DNA of 64,000 nt from Pseudobutyrivibrio ruminis CF1b (lineage in GTDB: Bacteria > Bacillota > Clostridia > Lachnospirales > Lachnospiraceae), in contig NZ_AUJB01000013.1 in the NCBI RefSeq assembly GCF_000424005.1, positions 62,001-126,000 of the forward strand, given 5' to 3'. Positions within the stretch are counted from its first letter, which is position 1. Each line of letters opens with the position of its first letter. The translations under genes and the position numbers were made by a program. This document shows positions 9,729-21,309 of the stretch, piece by piece. A model generated the notes under the pieces. It searched no databases. It saw only the letters and a list, made by a program, of their open reading frames with translations, and had not been told where the DNA came from.

Positions 9729-9952
9729 AAATTTACAGGAATGTAGATTGAATAAAAATATAAATAATCACTCACACTTTTCGACTAAATCTGATAGAGT
9801 AATAATTGAGTATACAGAAAATTTTTGTAGGACTCTTTATATTAAATTCAATTCCATAGATTTTTTAGTACATTAATTAAGTGGGTATATTTATGTACAC
9901 CTTCCTTTGCTACTATTATAAATATTAATAGAGCATGGAGGAAATAATAAAA

Positions 9953-10213
9953 ATGCCAGTTATATCTAGTTTTTTTGGAATTGAAATTTCAATGTATTAC
10001 GATGATCACAATCCACCACATTTTCACGCAAAATACGGTGAATATAAAGCTTTGGTGGATATAAAGAGATCACGGATAATGAAAGGCTTTATGCCATCAT
10101 CACAAGTCAAATTGGTTTTGGCTTGGTCGATTATTCATAAAGATGAATTAATGAATGATTGGGAGCTGGCTAAGATGATGGAAGAACTAAAAAAAATAGA
10201 ACCGTTGAGGTAA
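9953..10213 (+). CDS. DUF4160 domain protein
   Basis: 86 residues. The pattern MPVISSFFGIEISMYYDDHN, PPHFHAKYGEYKALVDI and WELAKMMEELKKIEPL is characteristic of DUF4160. Start set at the ATG at 9953 because the GGAGG at 9937-9941 would overlap the in-frame ATG at 9935. It stands five bases from a DUF2442 gene. DUF4160/DUF2442 pairs are common in bacteria and have been suggested to behave like toxin-antitoxin modules, without firm proof. Function unknown. Confidence 0.8.
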   Translation: MPVISSFFGIEISMYYDDHNPPHFHAKYGEYKALVDIKRSRIMKGFMPSSQVKLVLAWSIIHKDELMNDWELAKMMEELKKIEPLR

Positions 10214-10218
10214 AGAGT

Positions 10219-10491
10219 ATGATGTATGAGATAATTCAGGTTGTTCCACAGGATGATTTTACGGTTTGGATATATTTTGCAGATGGAAAAATTACTTGCT
10301 ATGATGTGAAGCCGAATCTTACTAAAGGGTTATTTAAAAAAATAGATGACATAGTCGTATTCAAAGAAAAATGTAAAATCATGAATGATACTTTGGCATG
10401 GGATATAGGGGTAGATGGCGAGGCTGATTGCTTGGATATAGATCCGATTACATTGTATAACTGTCCTGAAGTCGTTGATACTTTAGCATAG
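10219..10491 (+). CDS. DUF2442 domain protein
   Basis: 90 residues of beta-rich sequence: VVPQDDFTVWIYFADGKI, CYDVKPNLTKGLFKKIDD and TLAWDIGVDGEADCLDID match the DUF2442 pattern. It follows the DUF4160 gene by five bases and is surely co-transcribed. The ribosome site is weak (AAAGAG), so translation may be coupled. Likely partner of the DUF4160 protein; biochemical role unknown. Confidence 0.8.
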   Translation: MMYEIIQVVPQDDFTVWIYFADGKITCYDVKPNLTKGLFKKIDDIVVFKEKCKIMNDTLAWDIGVDGEADCLDIDPITLYNCPEVVDTLA

Positions 10492-10705: not shown

Positions 10706-11200
10706 TTAATTCAGTTTAGCATTCAAATGATACGCCTGTATCAATATTTTTTCTTTCCACAATTCATCTTCAGCATCAAGATGATATGTCTCATATCCAT
10801 ACTGTCTTCCGTTTGAACAGACGATTTTCTCGTCATCAATATGAAAGGCAATTCGATATTTGCTAGGCATTTTCTGAGGAAGAATGGTTGAATTATTTCT
10901 CTGAACCTCCTTCAAATGTCTTTGTCCATTTACAATCCCATCAAAACGAACATTATACAGTTTGAAAAGATGCCTAATGTAGCTTTCCGTCCTGAAAGAG
11001 GAGGTGTAGACCCATACTTCAAAGCCCAGCTCCTGAAGTTCGTTAATCAGCGCAGGAGTGCCAAGCCTCAATCGTTCTTTATATATTTTGTTAAAGGGAA
11101 AAGGTGGCGGCTCTTCAACCTTGTGGGTCATCGGTGATACAAACAGAACCTCATCAAGGTCGAAGGAGATACGCATTTTCTCGCCGGCATTATTAATCAT
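10706..11200 (-). CDS. HAD-like hydrolase, small, second gene of the ParB-HAD pair
   Basis: 164 residues. It begins with HAD motif I (FDLDEVLF, DxDxV), then PPFPFNKIYKERLRLGTPAL, the helix-strand ELGFEVWVYTSS and a late acidic motif FHIDDEKIV, consistent with a minimal HAD phosphatase fold (5'-nucleotidase-like). Its start codon overlaps the upstream gene by eight bases (TATGATTAA), so translation is coupled. It is a clear paralogue of the C-terminal half of that gene. Substrate unknown. Confidence 0.65.
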   Translation of the reverse strand: MINNAGEKMRISFDLDEVLFVSPMTHKVEEPPPFPFNKIYKERLRLGTPALINELQELGFEVWVYTSSFRTESYIRHLFKLYNVRFDGIVNGQRHLKEVQRNNSTILPQKMPSKYRIAFHIDDEKIVCSNGRQYGYETYHLDAEDELWKEKILIQAYHLNAKLN

Positions 11201-12071
11201 AAGAAGGTAGCTCCTTAATAATGTTGATTACGTCCCTTGACCAGTGATCCTTATCTTTGATTGGATATACACGGAATTCATTGGCTACATTGTCAAACAT
11301 ACTGACTTCAGCATTATCGAGATGTAGAGTGTATAAATAGTTGTCGACATACAGTGATTCCATCAGTTTTTTGTCTTCTGGATTAGTTCTTTTTGATGTA
11401 CCTGTAACTATACCAGTAGCAGTTAAATGGTATTTACGTAAAAGCGATTTAATATAGTCAGTGGAATAGTAGTTAACACTGTATAACCAAATATCAAATC
11501 CGTTTTTTTCAAGCATTCTAAATAAAGCAGGAATTCCAAGTCTCAGTCGATCTGGGTAAATCTTATTAAGTGGGAATGGTAATGGTTTTTCTGCCTGTCC
11601 TTGTGTGCCATTGTAGAAAACAACCTCGTCTAAATCAAGGGTAACGCGCTTGTTGTGCTCTGAGTGTTTAACTATTTCTTTGATTTCCTGATTGTGAACT
11701 ACATTTACAACCTGTACTGGAATTTTTGGATAGCCCAGTCTTAGGGCCGCAGCCCACCTGTGATGGCCGTTTAGAATCATATAGCCATCAGGATGAATCC
11801 GTTCAACTACAATAGGCTCCTCGCCCATATAGTAATTCTGATAAATTCGCTCCGAGTTTAAAAACTTCTTTTCATAATCAGAAATGATTCGATAGCTAGG
11901 CCCAATCTTAGGATGAGAAAATTCATCGTCAGGATTTGGATGCAGGTTTTCACAATAACATCGTTTTACAAGAAGGCGATGAAGCAAACCAGACTTGATT
12001 GGAATAGCTACTCCATCATGTCTTGATATTTCATCAGCTATATATGCTTCGAATTGTGTTTTGCTTTCCAT
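11193..12071 (-). CDS. ParB/Srx-like domain fused to a HAD-like domain
   Basis: 292 residues, two domains. Residues about 1-130 end in EEPIVVERIHPDGYMILNGH then HRWAAALRLGYPKIPVQVV, the ParB/sulfiredoxin-like core; in this superfamily the GHHR box binds nucleotide, and some members are free-serine kinases (SerK, SbnI). Residues about 138-292 form a HAD-like domain with DLDEVVF, then LPFPLNKIYPDRLRLGIPAL and GFDIWLYSVNYYSTDYIKSL, closely matching the downstream small HAD protein; its late motif is LHLDNAEV, with N where the partner has D. A kinase/phosphatase pairing is inference. The gene was not recognised as any named family. Confidence 0.65.
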   Translation of the reverse strand: MESKTQFEAYIADEISRHDGVAIPIKSGLLHRLLVKRCYCENLHPNPDDEFSHPKIGPSYRIISDYEKKFLNSERIYQNYYMGEEPIVVERIHPDGYMILNGHHRWAAALRLGYPKIPVQVVNVVHNQEIKEIVKHSEHNKRVTLDLDEVVFYNGTQGQAEKPLPFPLNKIYPDRLRLGIPALFRMLEKNGFDIWLYSVNYYSTDYIKSLLRKYHLTATGIVTGTSKRTNPEDKKLMESLYVDNYLYTLHLDNAEVSMFDNVANEFRVYPIKDKDHWSRDVINIIKELPSYD

Positions 12072-12099: not shown

Positions 12100-12561
12100 C
12101 TATTTAACAGGTACGCAATGCTTATCGTTGATGTCGCAAACCTTCTGAACGCGACGGCGATATTTTTCCTCCATAAGTGGATCTGTATTAAGCCATGTCT
12201 TTACAACTTCCATAGCCATAAGTCCGCCAATAATTTTTGCACCAAGGCAAAGGATATTTGAATCTGTGTGCTGTCTTGCGAGAGTAGCACATAAAGGATC
12301 CTGGCAAACTGCAGCGTAGCAGCCGTTGATTTTATTTGCGATAAGAGCACTGCCATATCCAACACCATCACAGAAGATTCCTCTGTCGCATTCTCCCTTC
12401 GCTACTGCAAGGGAAGCTGGATAAACGAAATCTGAAAGGTCGCAGCTTTCACCATCATAAGTACCAAAATCTACTACTTCATATCCGTTACTCTCGAGAT
12501 ATGCCTTAATTTCATTCTTCATTTCTGTTCCGGCATGATCATTTGCCATTGCAATTTTCAT
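12100..12561 (-). CDS. RpiB/LacAB-family sugar-phosphate isomerase
   Basis: 153 residues. MKIAMANDHAGTEMKNEIKAYL, GIFCDGVGYGSALIANKING and NILCLGAKIIGGLMAMEVVKTWL fit the RpiB/LacA/LacB fold, which interconverts ribose-5-P and ribulose-5-P or related sugar phosphates. The active-site cysteine is present, but the loop reads CDGVGYG rather than the usual C-G-T-G-I-G, so substrate may differ (allose-6-P, galactose-6-P or a non-standard pentose). AGGAGG precedes the ATG. It lies 28 bases upstream of the ParB-HAD gene on the same strand, suggesting one transcript. Confidence 0.82.
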   Translation of the reverse strand: MKIAMANDHAGTEMKNEIKAYLESNGYEVVDFGTYDGESCDLSDFVYPASLAVAKGECDRGIFCDGVGYGSALIANKINGCYAAVCQDPLCATLARQHTDSNILCLGAKIIGGLMAMEVVKTWLNTDPLMEEKYRRRVQKVCDINDKHCVPVK

Positions 12562-14793: not shown

Positions 14794-17700
14794 ATGAAAA
14801 AATTGGCTCGCAGAGGGCTATCTTTAGTTCTTTCGCTTTTGATGGTTGTTTCATGTGCTTACACTGATATTTCTTTCATTTCTAAGGCCGAAGAAACAAA
14901 CCATGTCTGGACTAAAGTAAGTCTATCCGATATCACATCTAGTGATTCTATTGCCATCACAATGAGCACTTCCGATGGCGAAATCTACGTATTGCCAAAT
15001 GCATCTACAGGAAAAGCACCAGCAGCTGTTCTCGGAACAGTTAACAATGGTTCTTTAACTATCGAATCAGGTAGTGATTCAGATTATGCATGGACAATTA
15101 CAAAGAACACTGTTGAGGAGACAGTTGTAGCAGGCTCTGATAATAATACAGAGGCAGAGACAGCTGCTGTTCAGGAAAAGACAGTGTCAGAGGAAATAAG
15201 CAGTGAGGCTACAGAAGAAAAGGCTTCTGTAAAAGCTTCTGAAAAGACTTCTACTAATGAGGTTTCTGAGACTACAGAGGATGAGACTGTAGTTGAGAAT
15301 GCAGAGGCTTCTGAGGTAAAGGCAGAAGAGAAGTCCGTTGAAGATTCTGATAAGAAGGATCTTGAGAAAGAGGATGACAAGGACTCACAGGATAAGGAGT
15401 CAGAGAAAAAGGTTACAAGAACTTACTATACAATAGGAAGTGGTTCTTCATATCTTTACACTAACGCTGCTAACAACGGTGTTAGAGCTGGTTCGATGCC
15501 AAAGGATCAGGTTGGCGCTCAGTGGCAGCTTGATGATACTGGTTATCTTTCAGCTAAAGACTCAAAGGATGCTACTCGATTCTTAGGGGTATACAATAAA
15601 CAGGATTGGAGAGCATACACAAACACAACAGGAAACATTAAGGACCAGACCTTAGGTTTCTACAAGCTTACAAGCAAGGTTGCAGGTGAGGGCAAGGTTT
15701 CAGCTCCAAAGGCTTCTGTTGAAAGCGGTACAGAGGTAGAGTTTGGTGCTGAGGTAGAGCTTACATGCGATACAGAAGACGCTAAGATTTACTACAACGT
15801 AAATGGCAGCGAGGACAACTACAGCCCATACAAGAAAGCAATCGAAATCACAAAGGAAACTACAATTTATGCTTACTCAGTTGTTGATGAGACAAAGAGC
15901 GAGATAGTTTCATTCAACTACAAGCTTATTGCAGGTTCCAAGATTACAGATATTACAAAGCTTGATGATGAGCAGGAGTTTGTACTTTCATTTAATAATG
16001 AAAAGGTACTTTCTACTGAGGCAAGCGGCAAGAAGATGGCTGGTGTTGATGTAAAGGTTGATGATGACAACCACCTTACATACACAGATGCTCAGGCTGC
16101 TATTGTTAAGCTTAAGCTCGTAAAAGCTGAAAATGATGGAGAGTTTTATCTTACATCAGACATTCTTGAGGATAATGTACTTACAACAAAGTACCTTACT
16201 TCAGGAGCTACAGGAAACAGCCTTTCACTTGAGGCTGAGAAGAATGAGTTCAGCCTTTGGTCAGTTGAGCCAGAGGAAGATGGCACATTCCTTGTTAAAA
16301 ACGTAAATGCGGTTTACAAGAATAAGGCACAGTATCTTGAGTTCTACTCAGGATTCACAACATACAGCTACACAGCTGGTGGAAAGAAGGATGCATACAC
16401 ATTCTCAGCATACACAGTACCTGAGCTTGAGAAGACAGATGCTCCTACAGACAACACACTTGGAAAGCTTCTCACAAGAGAGCTTTACGATGGAGATCAG
16501 GTAGTTGTTTATTATCCAGCAGGCAAGAAGCTTATGACATCTGAGGCTACTACAAATGGTAAGATCAAGGATGTTGCAGCTGAGCCAGCAGAGGATGGCA
16601 CACTTGAAACAAAGGATTTAAATGCTGCAGTTCTTAAGGTTGCAGTTGATGACAACGGATACTATTCTTTCAAGACAGCTGATGGCAAGTACCTTACTGG
16701 CTCAGTTGAGGAGAAGGAAGTAGACGGCAAGAAGAAGACTTATGCAAATCTTACTCTTGAGGATACAAAGACAGATAACAGCCTTTGGACAGAGGAAGCA
16801 GCCAGCGCAGAAGGAAAGTATTACTTAAAGAATGCTTTCGCAAAGGTTGGTTCAAACGTTCAGGCTCTTGAATACTATAGTGGATTCTCACTTTATGGAT
16901 TCAAGGAAGCTGCTGCTTATGAGTTCAGCTTCTATGCACTTGAAGAAGGCACAAAGACAGTTAAGTACGATTATGATGATACTCTTCTTACAGTTGCTCA
17001 GTGGGCAGGTAATGCACACTACGATGAAGTAGAGACATCTAAGGAGTATATCAACGGTGACTTATATGCTACTAACGATATGCTTGATTCATCTGCTAAG
17101 TACACAGCAGTTGTAAATGGAAGTGTTTCACAGCCATGGACATCTGCAAAGAGTAGCAACACAGGCTCTACAAACTTCTACATGGGATCAACAGGTGTTA
17201 TCAATAAGGACACTGATTACATGCAGTTTGCATTCCCATCAGCAGGCTATGGCAACATGTCAGTTGATTTCAGAATGAGAGCTTCAAACACTGCTTGCGG
17301 AGCATTCCAGCTTCAGTACTCTACAGATGGAGAATCATTCAAGGATCTTAAGACTGGTACATATTCATATAAGTACACAGCTTACAAGGCAGGAGATAAG
17401 GTAGATGAGAACGGCAAGGCTGTTCAGGAGCCATTCGAGGTAAATGGTTCTGGCGACATCACAGATGGTAAGGCACTCACATCTCTTGCTCCAACATACT
17501 ACATCACATTTAGCTTCGACATTCCAAATGCAGCAGCAAATGCTGAGAAGCTTTATGTAAGACTTGTTCCTGCAAGCGACAAGTCAGCTAAGGGCGACAA
17601 GGCTCCAGCAAAGGGCGGTGTTATCCGCATTGATGGTGTTACATTCAAGGGTAACCCAATCGTTAGCGATGATGTTACTGGTTATGTAATTGCCAGTCCA

Positions 17701-20700
17701 GCAGCCGGCGAGATTTCTTCTAACCAGAAGGTATCTCTTTCATCTAAGACTGAGGGAGCAGAAATCTTCTACTCAGTAAACGGTGGAGAGTTTGTTAAGT
17801 ACGATGATGAAAAGAAGGTAAGCTTCACAGAGCTTCCAGCAACAGTTCGTGCTTACGCTACAAAGGAAGGACTTGCTAAATCTGTTACTGTAAATTATCA
17901 GTACACACAGGCTCAGGTTTCACCAGTTAAGGCTACACCAAACGGTGGCGCAGTTATTGAGAATCAGAAGGTATCCCTTAAGTCTAAGACAGAGGGTGCT
18001 AAGATCTTCTACAGATACATGACTGAGGAAGAGATTGCAGCAGCTGATAACACAGTAGCTTCTGAGGAGAACAATGAAGAGACAGAAGAGCCAGCAGTTG
18101 AAGAGCACAATGACTGGATTGAATATGAAAAGCCATTCACACTTGAGACTCTTCCTGCTCAGATCCAGGTAAAGGCTACAAAGGAAGGCTACAAGGATAG
18201 CGCTGTTTCTACTCTCAAGTTCACAAAGAAGGAAAATGAGAAGTACAACATCTACTTTGGACAGATTCATGCACACACAAGCATTTCTGACGGTGCTGGT
18301 ACACTTGAGGAGGCTTTAAAGCATGCTACTAACGTAGATAATCTTGACTATATCGTAATTACGGACCACAGTAACTCAATTGACAACGAGAAGGAGTCAA
18401 AGATTACTGAGAACGTAGATAAGGCTGCAACAGATGAGTGGACATACGCTCACAATCTTGTAAAGCAGTACTCAACAGATAAGTTTACATGTGCTTACGG
18501 TTATGAGATGACATGGTCAAATGGTCTTGGTCATATCAACACTTACAACACACCAGGTTTCCAGAGCCGTACACAGACAGCATACTCAACATATGCTACA
18601 GCATTACAGAATTACTATGAGGCACTTAGATCAGTTCCTGATTCTATCAGCCAGTTCAATCACCCAGGTACAACCTTCGGTGATTTCCAGGATTTCGCAT
18701 ACTACACAGAAGAGAACGATGCGTTAATCACAATGATTGAGGTTGGTAACGGTGAAGGTACAATTGGTTCTTCAGGTTACTTCCCATCATACGAGTACTA
18801 CACTCGTGCCCTTGATAAGGGATGGCACGTAGCTCCTACTAACAACCAGGATAACCACAAGGGTAAGTGGGGCGATGCCAACACAGCACGTACAGTAATG
18901 CTTGCTGATACAAATGATGAAACTGCTATCTATGATGCAATGAGAAATTATCGTATATACGCAACAGAGGATAACGACCTCTCAGTATATTACACACTTG
19001 ATAATAACATCATGGGTACAATCCTTGAGAAGGATGCAGTAGGTGATACTGTTGAGCTCAAGGCAGAAATCAAGGATCCTACAGATTCAAAGATTGGCCG
19101 TGTTGAGGTTATCGTTAACGGTGGTCAGTCAATCGCTATGGAGAATGTAGCTACTAACGAAAAGACAGTTACATTCGAGGTACCATCTAGCTACTCATAC
19201 TACTACTTAAAGATTACAGAAGATGATGGCGATATCGCTGTTACAGCTCCTGTATGGGTAGGTGAGGTTGAGGCTTGCGGTATCAACAAGACTTACACAA
19301 ACACAGTTCTTCCTGTAAAGGGAGAGAGCCTTGATGTAAATGTTGATTTCTACAACAACGAGCAGACAGATCTTACAATCGACAACATCCAGGTAGTCCT
19401 CAAGGACGTTGATAATAAGGAAACAGAGGTTGTAAACCTTTCAGGTGCAGAGGCTGGTATCACATCAGTTAAGTCACAGGGCACAGCAACCTTCAAGACA
19501 GACTTCGTATATAACGAGGCTGGTCAGGTTACTTATGAGGTAGTTGTTAACGCAACACTTAACGGAGTACCTAAGGTATACACAGATAAGCTTCAGTTAA
19601 GCTATGCAGTTCCAGAGATGGTTACAGACGTACTCATCGACGGAACACATTACAATGACTATGTTACTGGCTACTACGGTGGCAACATGTCAGCTTTCGT
19701 TTCAATCTGCGCTAAGAAGAATATCAGAGCTCAGGTTGTTACAACAGAAATTACACCAGAGATGCTTGAGAAGTGCTCATTACTTGTAGTATCCGCTCCA
19801 GCTAAGAAGTCTGGTACAGCAAATGCTGGTGATTACACAGTTTCACACTTCAGTGATGATTTCATTGCTATGGTTAAGGACTATGTGGCAAATGGCGGTT
19901 CTGTAATCGTATGTGGTCTTGCAGATTACTCAGATACAACAGACGGTCAGACAGCTACAGAGCAGAACAAGCTTCTTGAAGCAATCGGCTCTACAATCCG
20001 CATGGGTTCTGATGAGGTTTGTGATGATACAAACAATGGTGGTCAGGTATACAGAATGTACCCAACTACTTACAACACAGAGTCAGCTTTATTTGCTGGA
20101 TTAAGAGATGGCCAGAAGTACAGCCAGTACTCAGGCTGCTCAGTTGATATTTCAAATGCTAAGGCTACAGATTTTGTAGACAAGGCACAGTGGCTTGTAA
20201 AGGGCTTTGATACTACTTACTCAGTAGACTGCAAGGATGCATCAGGAAATCCACAGCCAGGTACACTTGATAACGGTGTTAAGGGTGCAAAGAATGACAA
20301 CCTTGGTGATGTTACATTCCTTGCAACACAGCACACAAAGGCTGGTGGTGATATCTTCGTAGCTGGTGGCGTATTCATTTCAGACTTCGAAGTAAAGGCA
20401 GAGATGGACAACAATGATTCATTGCCATACACTAACCACACAATCATTAACAACATCCTTGAGGGTGTTACAGTAGAGCTTCCAACATCTACAATCGCAG
20501 AGGCTCGTGCTGGTAAGATGAATGAGGTATTCGCTGTTGAAGGTTATGTAACATCTGGTACAGACAACGAGAACACAACATTCTTCGATACAATTTACCT
20601 TCAGGATGAGACAGCTGGTATCGACATATTCCCATATGCTACACCAGGTCTTGCAATTGGTACAAAGATGCGTATCGTTGGATACGTTTCACAGTATCAG

Positions 20701-21309
20701 GGAGATAAGGAGCTTAAGGTTATCTCATCTAAGATTCTTAATGACGAGCCATACGTATGGGCTCCAAAGGAAGTAGACACAAAGACTGCAATGAATTATG
20801 ATGCTCTTGGTGGTTCACTTCTTAAGACAACTGGTAAGGTAACAAGAGTTGCTTACGGTTCTGACGGAAAGACTGTTGAGGAATTCTGGCTTAAGGATTC
20901 TACAGGCGTTGAGGCAGCTATCTTCATCGATGGTTACATCAACTCAGCTACAACAGGAAAGAACGAAGTAGCAAACTTCGTTAAGGAAGGTGCTACAGTT
21001 TCTGCAGTTGGTGTTCTTTACATGCACCCAGAGGGAGATTCTGAGGTATCAGTACCTGTATTCAGAGTTCGCAATTGCGATGATATTGTTCTTGTTAAGG
21101 AGCCTGAACCAGAGGTTAAGCCAGATCCTGTTAAGGAAACAATCAAGCAGGTTGGAAAGGTAGTTAAGAATGTTGTTGAGACTGTTGAGAAGACGGTTCA
21201 GAAGGTAGCTGCCAAGAATCCAGTTGTTAAGAAGATTGTTGAGAACCCAGTTGTTAAGCAGGTGGTTAGCGCAATTAAGAGCTTCTTAGGAAAGTTTTTT
21301 GGATGGTAA
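14794..21309 (+). CDS. Giant secreted multidomain protein with PHP (CehA/McbA-type) metallohydrolase domain
   Basis: 2171 residues, exported (signal peptide about 1-31 ending SKA). Order: a beta-rich domain (28-300) interrupted by a low-complexity Glu/Lys/Ser insert (about 108-206); a chitobiase-C-like Ig module (302-378); two tandem copies of an FYSGF-containing domain (about 385-545, 553-715); a jelly-roll-like domain (720-955); two more chitobiase-C-like modules (965-1150); PHP domain (about 1153-1430) with H1159-A-H1161, D1191-H1192, FNHPG and QDNH metal-site motifs; a Rossmann/GATase-like domain (from about 1605); two OB-like domains (about 1900-2100); and a cationic amphipathic tail. 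AAAGGAGG precedes the ATG. Substrate unknown, perhaps an extracellular phosphoester or glycan; no LPxTG sorting signal. Confidence 0.75.
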   Translation: MKKLARRGLSLVLSLLMVVSCAYTDISFISKAEETNHVWTKVSLSDITSSDSIAITMSTSDGEIYVLPNASTGKAPAAVLGTVNNGSLTIESGSDSDYAWTITKNTVEETVVAGSDNNTEAETAAVQEKTVSEEISSEATEEKASVKASEKTSTNEVSETTEDETVVENAEASEVKAEEKSVEDSDKKDLEKEDDKDSQDKESEKKVTRTYYTIGSGSSYLYTNAANNGVRAGSMPKDQVGAQWQLDDTGYLSAKDSKDATRFLGVYNKQDWRAYTNTTGNIKDQTLGFYKLTSKVAGEGKVSAPKASVESGTEVEFGAEVELTCDTEDAKIYYNVNGSEDNYSPYKKAIEITKETTIYAYSVVDETKSEIVSFNYKLIAGSKITDITKLDDEQEFVLSFNNEKVLSTEASGKKMAGVDVKVDDDNHLTYTDAQAAIVKLKLVKAENDGEFYLTSDILEDNVLTTKYLTSGATGNSLSLEAEKNEFSLWSVEPEEDGTFLVKNVNAVYKNKAQYLEFYSGFTTYSYTAGGKKDAYTFSAYTVPELEKTDAPTDNTLGKLLTRELYDGDQVVVYYPAGKKLMTSEATTNGKIKDVAAEPAEDGTLETKDLNAAVLKVAVDDNGYYSFKTADGKYLTGSVEEKEVDGKKKTYANLTLEDTKTDNSLWTEEAASAEGKYYLKNAFAKVGSNVQALEYYSGFSLYGFKEAAAYEFSFYALEEGTKTVKYDYDDTLLTVAQWAGNAHYDEVETSKEYINGDLYATNDMLDSSAKYTAVVNGSVSQPWTSAKSSNTGSTNFYMGSTGVINKDTDYMQFAFPSAGYGNMSVDFRMRASNTACGAFQLQYSTDGESFKDLKTGTYSYKYTAYKAGDKVDENGKAVQEPFEVNGSGDITDGKALTSLAPTYYITFSFDIPNAAANAEKLYVRLVPASDKSAKGDKAPAKGGVIRIDGVTFKGNPIVSDDVTGYVIASPAAGEISSNQKVSLSSKTEGAEIFYSVNGGEFVKYDDEKKVSFTELPATVRAYATKEGLAKSVTVNYQYTQAQVSPVKATPNGGAVIENQKVSLKSKTEGAKIFYRYMTEEEIAAADNTVASEENNEETEEPAVEEHNDWIEYEKPFTLETLPAQIQVKATKEGYKDSAVSTLKFTKKENEKYNIYFGQIHAHTSISDGAGTLEEALKHATNVDNLDYIVITDHSNSIDNEKESKITENVDKAATDEWTYAHNLVKQYSTDKFTCAYGYEMTWSNGLGHINTYNTPGFQSRTQTAYSTYATALQNYYEALRSVPDSISQFNHPGTTFGDFQDFAYYTEENDALITMIEVGNGEGTIGSSGYFPSYEYYTRALDKGWHVAPTNNQDNHKGKWGDANTARTVMLADTNDETAIYDAMRNYRIYATEDNDLSVYYTLDNNIMGTILEKDAVGDTVELKAEIKDPTDSKIGRVEVIVNGGQSIAMENVATNEKTVTFEVPSSYSYYYLKITEDDGDIAVTAPVWVGEVEACGINKTYTNTVLPVKGESLDVNVDFYNNEQTDLTIDNIQVVLKDVDNKETEVVNLSGAEAGITSVKSQGTATFKTDFVYNEAGQVTYEVVVNATLNGVPKVYTDKLQLSYAVPEMVTDVLIDGTHYNDYVTGYYGGNMSAFVSICAKKNIRAQVVTTEITPEMLEKCSLLVVSAPAKKSGTANAGDYTVSHFSDDFIAMVKDYVANGGSVIVCGLADYSDTTDGQTATEQNKLLEAIGSTIRMGSDEVCDDTNNGGQVYRMYPTTYNTESALFAGLRDGQKYSQYSGCSVDISNAKATDFVDKAQWLVKGFDTTYSVDCKDASGNPQPGTLDNGVKGAKNDNLGDVTFLATQHTKAGGDIFVAGGVFISDFEVKAEMDNNDSLPYTNHTIINNILEGVTVELPTSTIAEARAGKMNEVFAVEGYVTSGTDNENTTFFDTIYLQDETAGIDIFPYATPGLAIGTKMRIVGYVSQYQGDKELKVISSKILNDEPYVWAPKEVDTKTAMNYDALGGSLLKTTGKVTRVAYGSDGKTVEEFWLKDSTGVEAAIFIDGYINSATTGKNEVANFVKEGATVSAVGVLYMHPEGDSEVSVPVFRVRNCDDIVLVKEPEPEVKPDPVKETIKQVGKVVKNVVETVEKTVQKVAAKNPVVKKIVENPVVKQVVSAIKSFLGKFFGW

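Follow-up and report, generated by a model that had tools for sequence, protein, structure and literature searches.

Results

An overlapping gene pair joins a ParB/Srx-HAD fusion to a stand-alone HAD gene

Two genes on the minus strand, here termed A and B, overlap within the window, i.e., the whole 64,000-nucleotide stretch of DNA that was analyzed. Gene A (11193..12071) encodes a 292-aa protein that, according to profile matches and alignment, joins a ParB/Srx-like domain (residues about 30–133) to a degenerate HAD domain (residues about 139–290), the corresponding halves of the gene lying at 11673..12071 and 11193..11672, both on the minus strand. Gene B (10706..11200, minus strand) encodes a stand-alone HAD protein of 164 aa, predicted to be a cap-less phosphatase. 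Both reading frames were found, and they share 8 nt (11193..11200, minus strand), with an AAGGAG sequence shortly 5′ of the B start codon ATG, inside A. Frames overlap likewise in 21 of the 22 linked pairs arranged from A to B; in genome G460, the order is reversed to B-A.

A gene of the rpiB/lacAB isomerase family (12100..12561, minus strand) is located 28 nt upstream of A and possibly shares a transcription unit with the pair in this genome; a promoter and terminator scan yielded no signal above shuffled sequences. The original prediction had placed an RpiB-like isomerase just upstream on the same strand, which is correct, but as a partner of the pair it could not be sustained. Joint action of A and B with this isomerase in sugar-phosphate metabolism would fit the common strand and the short gap, which is similar in the two closest relatives. 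However, RpiB adjoins A only in these two genomes (and lies near A in G009), with other neighbors in nearly all remaining ones, and a cap-less HAD would be atypical for such a role, as this fold is unusual for small sugar-phosphate substrates. The neighborhood comparison largely refutes this reading, which we regard as extremely improbable, and a functional link to RpiB was rejected.

Two further observations concern the flanks. Small DUF4160 and DUF2442 genes lie side by side on the plus strand (9935–10491), convergent with B and possibly forming a two-gene unit of their own. On the far side of rpiB, a secreted-looking repeat protein of 2171 aa is encoded at 14794–21309 (plus strand), and an 82% identical counterpart adjoins A-B in B. 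fibrisolvens 16/4 (L049).

The N-terminal half of A belongs to the ParB/Srx fold and departs from SerK and SbnI

The proposed fusion of a ParB/Srx-like core to a HAD domain was confirmed for the upstream protein by several profile comparisons. The ParB_N family PF02195 matches A at its threshold, with 24.4 bits for A alone, 26.1 bits in the genome scan and 26.5 bits when neighbors are included (cut-off 26.3), a profile of the N-terminal half aligns to ParB with an hhalign probability of 97.8%, and the SerK model NF053625 matches the same half with E=1.4e-7. A thus combines a profile match with the GxxR-type nucleotide-binding box of the fold: it carries HPNPDDEF at residues 44–51 and NGHHRW at residues 101–106, the latter being present in 32/32 A proteins. 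ParB folds are described as binding CTP, ATP or GTP in the survey PMC12704722. Unlike canonical ParB/Noc proteins, A has a HAD domain as its C-terminal half; no Pfam match to an HTH or a C-terminal dimerization domain was found in A, and no parA was recognized among the listed neighbors. The predicted three-dimensional model of the ParB half was of too poor quality for use.

Among solved structures, SerK and SbnI match the ParB half most closely, and the GHHR box of A aligns to DGHHRWA of SerK and DGVHR of SbnI. This relationship favors a kinase-phosphatase pair, in which the ParB/Srx domain of A would phosphorylate a small molecule or a protein, in the manner of SerK, SbnI or sulfiredoxin, and B would remove the phosphate; the ParB fold is known to transfer phosphate in sulfiredoxin, as PMC3482391 discusses. 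SbnI activity requires Glu20 and Asp58, according to a statement in PMC9641203 that cites Verstraete 2018. Judged by the numbering offset between SbnI chains in the alignment, Asp58 probably corresponds to the D of DGVHR, and this position is occupied by Asn (Asn101 here) in all 32 A proteins. Asp49/Glu50 of the HPNPxDEF box, in contrast, are kept in nearly all of them and could be the equivalent of SbnI Glu20. A falls widely below the SerK/SbnI equivalog cut-offs (30.9 vs 380 bits and 21.4 vs 350 bits), and genes of serine or cysteine metabolism do not recur among its neighbors. The earlier suggestion of a SerK/SbnI-like free-serine kinase is weakened accordingly, and we consider a kinase-phosphatase pair decidedly unlikely.

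By sequence, the closest relative found for the ParB half is a ParB-like frame at the end of an RHS-repeat gene, in a different genome of the Clostridia (40% identity over 87 aa, E=9e-17). It carries DEFxxPKIGPS and NGHHRW, i.e., Asn as in A, and the Asn therefore need not imply a dead ParB half, which possibly performs another phosphotransfer or binds NTP alone. This ParB/Srx-like ORF overlaps the end of the RHS-repeat gene (L098 441–2314, minus strand; L112) in a different frame, and the RHS gene seems to be frameshifted.

B retains the HAD catalytic residues that the HAD half of A has lost

The C-terminal part of A and the coupled downstream protein B are paralogs, as had been proposed, with 29% identity over 153 aa (E=2e-26). 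In B, the catalytic residues D14, D16, T66, K110, D122 and D123 are invariant in 32/32 B-type proteins, covering all four HAD motifs (I DxD, II T/S, III K/R, IV DD). B is therefore best read as an active HAD phosphohydrolase, with Asp14 as the predicted nucleophile, Asp16 as acid/base, and Thr66, Lys110 and Asp122/123, the latter for Mg2+. The same motifs are incomplete in A, whose catalytic set in this genome is D, D, S, L, D, N. In all 26 full-length A proteins, L, I or M takes the place of the motif-III Lys, and none has D as the second motif-IV acid, which is N in 18, G in 7 and S in 1. The first motif-IV D is missing from 10 of them, and 6 have N instead of the nucleophile D. A proteins added later follow the same loss pattern; in G824, E replaces the second D of motif I (D16).

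DN in one paralog and DD in the other had been pointed out before, and A is the DN copy, B the DD copy. FCP/SCP phosphatases use DN in motif IV, so DN alone is insufficient as proof of inactivity and was rejected as such; the missing motif-III Lys and the lost nucleophile in combination with DN, however, indicate that the HAD half of A is inactive, a pseudophosphatase as judged from its residues. The anticipated division into one catalytic and one regulatory copy is supported, with B as the catalytic and the HAD half of A as the degenerate copy. The degenerate domain is under purifying selection and not decaying: dN/dS is 0.05–0.12 in most close pairs, including lineages without the nucleophile, with one very close pair (dS <0.15) giving 0.23–0.29 and many dS values being near saturation. 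In the same genomes, B proteins share a mean pairwise identity of 0.71, compared with 0.55 for the ParB halves and 0.45 for the HAD halves of A.

At the family level, B most resembles the HAD domains of phage polynucleotide kinases (phrog_415, 19/21 members matched, best 2.4e-8), with weak likeness to PNKP and PNK3P, and DNA or nucleotide binding is common in ParB folds. B could hence be a PNKP-like 3′-phosphatase or nucleotidase with A as a nucleic-acid- or nucleotide-binding helper. Yet every curated match lies below its cut-off: the PNKP phosphatase profile gives 12.5 bits (cut-off 27.6) and the kinase domain is absent, while NIF/FCP-type protein phosphatases score equally (NIF, PF03031, reaches at most 18.4 bits against a cut-off of 21.8, in an outgroup homolog). 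Kinase, ligase or repair genes do not recur nearby, and A is devoid of an HTH, making an end-processing or nucleotide pair unlikely.

Structure predictions reached a mean pLDDT of 49 for A and 57 for B, and Foldseek searches with these models preferred the cap-less HADs KdsC, SCP2, T4 PNKP and lipin, with no match at E <0.001. As the underlying alignments are shallow, these predictions support the folds weakly. AlphaFold and Foldseek were set aside as proof of fold because of this low confidence.

The HAD domains of A have a single origin

A phylogeny of 71 HAD domains, with distant stand-alone HADs as the root, places the HAD domains of A in a single clade (100/100) on a long stem inside the stand-alone B-type HADs; owing to long branches, the branching order is unsure in detail. 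The simplest account would be one duplication of a B-like gene, its fusion behind a ParB domain and a subsequent loss of catalysis.

Phage and plasmid records contained no homolog of A or B except generic ParB domains, and viral-contig scans returned no B and one unrelated short ORF with NGHHRW (L111). On the basis of these searches, a mobile or phage origin was rejected. They also bear on the idea that the pair is derived from biological conflict, the ParB half descending from a Tox-ParB toxin domain and A-B serving as a toxin-antidote or defense pair. The kinship to the RHS-linked frame, the description of Tox-ParB domains with DGHHR (PMC3482391) and the patchy occurrence of the pair at many different loci would agree with such a descent. 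The single orthologous gene tree, the purifying selection, the operon-like overlap and the recurrence of signaling genes as neighbors argue against it, and apart from the ParB fold no match to a defense or toxin family was obtained. A defense system was rejected, since PADLOC gave no match other than a weak one to a methyltransferase. Overall, a conflict-derived module appears very unlikely.

Intact A co-occurs with B across the sampled genomes

A survey for the fused and unfused genes, as the original prediction had proposed, found A and B together in about 32 genomes from at least three families, the carriers being relatives of Pseudobutyrivibrio from gut and rumen. The genome analyzed here is itself a close relative of Pseudobutyrivibrio xylanivorans. 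Conservation across other genera and families shows that the pair is not a chance arrangement. Within the order, represented by 392 genomes, both genes occur in 16, B alone in two, a decayed remnant in one and A alone in none. B without A does occur; an intact A without B was found in none of the samples of order (392 genomes), class, family and genus. Both genes are retained in about nine genomes in which they are unlinked. Broken copies are present in three members of the genus: in G012, A is cut short and B reduced to its tail (L028 7595–8014); in G001, A contains stops and a single hybrid HAD frame is left (L029 8839–9550); in G009, A is frameshifted and B intact. The frameshifted A of B. 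fibrisolvens 16/4 lies at L021 5992–6863.

Six of the unlinked genomes form one clade, which harbors a diverged type 2 A (A2) without its own B and a type 1 B (B1) without A1. B is located in the dnaE-pfkA-trmH locus, where G019 carries a type 1 A-B pair, and G014 retains, upstream of B, a recognizable remnant of the lost type 1 A that comprises its final 36 residues (L030 7674–7781, E=9e-10). These remains imply an ancestor with two pairs that lost one A and the B of the other pair, leaving one A and one B, i.e., a swap of partners. The pairing of A and B is strongly supported. Beside B at the trmH locus, seven genomes encode a conserved protein of 87–95 aa (MRIWFKSWKDNHMLHD...; L042 9332–9595, L030 6848–7135) without Pfam match.

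Partner-switching genes recur beside the pair

The neighbors that recur are genes of partner-switching signaling. A HATPase-like gene, STAS, HATPase_c_2, A and B follow each other in one direction at L041, and the order is A, B, HATPase_c_2, STAS at L045 and B, A, HATPase_c_2, STAS at L092, in another genus. A, B and SpoIIE overlap at L101, as do A, B and a MATE-HATPase_c_2 gene at L103, and L036 and L089/L107 have STAS and a HATPase-like gene within 2.5 kb. At L041, L045, L092, L101 and L103, the signaling genes are contiguous with the pair.

HATPase_c_2, STAS or SpoIIE genes lie within 3 kb of the pair in 7/28 genomes, compared with 0.85 expected (P about 1e-5), the expectation being based on every STAS, HATPase_c_2 and SpoIIE match in these genomes, which at 9.4 per genome sets an upper limit. 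The neighbors counted were Pfam-checked or short single-domain proteins only, with the MATE-HATPase fusion (G477) included. Genomes within one genus are not independent, and the first examples were already known when the test was set up. With relatives collapsed, such a neighbor is present in 6/17 lineages (P about 1e-5), and outside the genus in 3/6 (P=0.002). Of five independent genomes added after the idea was set down, two (G1003, G1018) have a partner-switching neighbor. In most genomes, including the present one, no partner-switching gene lies beside the pair. Together, these data suggest that A-B probably acts in serine/threonine-phosphorylation signaling.

Several other observations were made at these loci. 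A cNMP-binding protein and a PAS-guanylate/adenylate cyclase lie beside the HAD gene in G002 and G1006, which belong to two genera (L105 8300–10750, L041 9076–12247). "HATPase-like" is our own label for proteins of 176–415 aa, since they have no Pfam match. A Pfam-less protein family with an N-terminal LLSEEALRLA-like motif (L041 6189–6719, L036 9714–10961, L089 9322–10545, L087 8677–9300) is mostly found beside STAS genes and is perhaps an undescribed anti-sigma-type kinase family. MATE transporters with a C-terminal HATPase_c_2 fusion are encoded at L103 8345–10114 and L090 11194–12945, and long frames with a HATPase_c_2 domain occur in several of the surveyed genomes.

Discussion

We tentatively favor, at slightly under even confidence, a two-component phosphatase module composed of an NTP-binding pseudophosphatase regulator (A) and an active, putatively cap-less phosphatase (B). 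A B-like HAD gene would have been duplicated and one copy fused 3′ of a ParB/Srx NTP-binding domain to yield A, whose HAD domain then lost catalysis and turned into a docking or regulatory pseudophosphatase. A would bind nucleotide via HPNPxDEF and NGHHRW and hold B, or the substrate of B, through its pseudo-HAD, such that the nucleotide state of A gates dephosphorylation by B. The recurrent neighbors suggest that the target might be a phosphoprotein in partner-switching signaling of the SpoIIE/RsbW-like/STAS type. Neighbor enrichment, the partner swap, the co-occurrence of A and B, purifying selection, the single origin, the lost residues and the structure of the genes are observations, whereas NTP binding, contact between A and B, gating and a phosphoprotein substrate are what we infer. 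The complete scheme, in which a ParB fold serves as an NTP switch, controls a phosphatase by way of a fused inactive copy of that enzyme and feeds SpoIIE/HATPase/STAS partner switching, is somewhat unlikely as a whole; if true, it would add a new regulatory input to clostridial signaling and a ParB-fold switch that is not aimed at DNA.

ParB folds have lately come to be seen as general NTP-binding modules, and few of their partners beyond DNA segregation are known. A-B offers a defined two-protein unit and a natural experiment, with a dead paralog under selection, no intact copy found without its live twin and one change of partner. It can be regarded as a pseudoenzyme paired with its enzyme, possibly under nucleotide control, and is a candidate for a new layer of serine/threonine-phosphorylation signaling in common gut and rumen Clostridia.

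Known systems resemble individual parts of this pair. SerK and SbnI share with A the ParB/Srx fold, the GHHR box and the lack of an HTH; they differ by the required Asp, which is Asn in every A protein, by the degenerate HAD C-terminus of A and by curated scores that A does not approach. Tox-ParB domains of polymorphic (RHS) toxins include the nearest relative found for the ParB half, with the shared DEFxxPKIGPS ... NGHHRW signature, yet A has a HAD after its ParB domain and is devoid of an RHS or trafficking region and a secretion context, and no immunity gene was recognized among its neighbors. Like the ParB-CTPase-fold fusions surveyed in PMC12704722 (PNAS 2025), A combines an orphan ParB-like fold with a lineage-specific domain; the main text of that survey names no HAD or phosphatase fusion, and A, lying at the PF02195 threshold, could be missed. 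B shares with the cap-less HADs (FCP/SCP-NIF, PNKP, HAD-IIIC) its small size, DxDx(V/T), the motif-IV DD, weak profile and fold matches and, apparently, the lack of a recognizable cap, but with all curated matches below cut-off, B and its relatives constitute an unnamed family. Partner-switching modules (SpoIIE/RsbU, RsbW-like HATPase_c_2, STAS) are recurrent neighbors of A-B, sometimes within one apparent operon; A and B are not among their known components, and neither contains a STAS, HATPase_c_2 or PP2C domain. No open-licence paper was found that links haloacid dehalogenases either to ParB and sulfiredoxin or to STAS and partner switching, in agreement with the initial impression that no system of this form has been described. 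We conclude that A-B is a real and conserved, apparently undescribed unit built of known parts, and that the lack of any intact A without B in the sampled genomes points to a regulator-enzyme pair.
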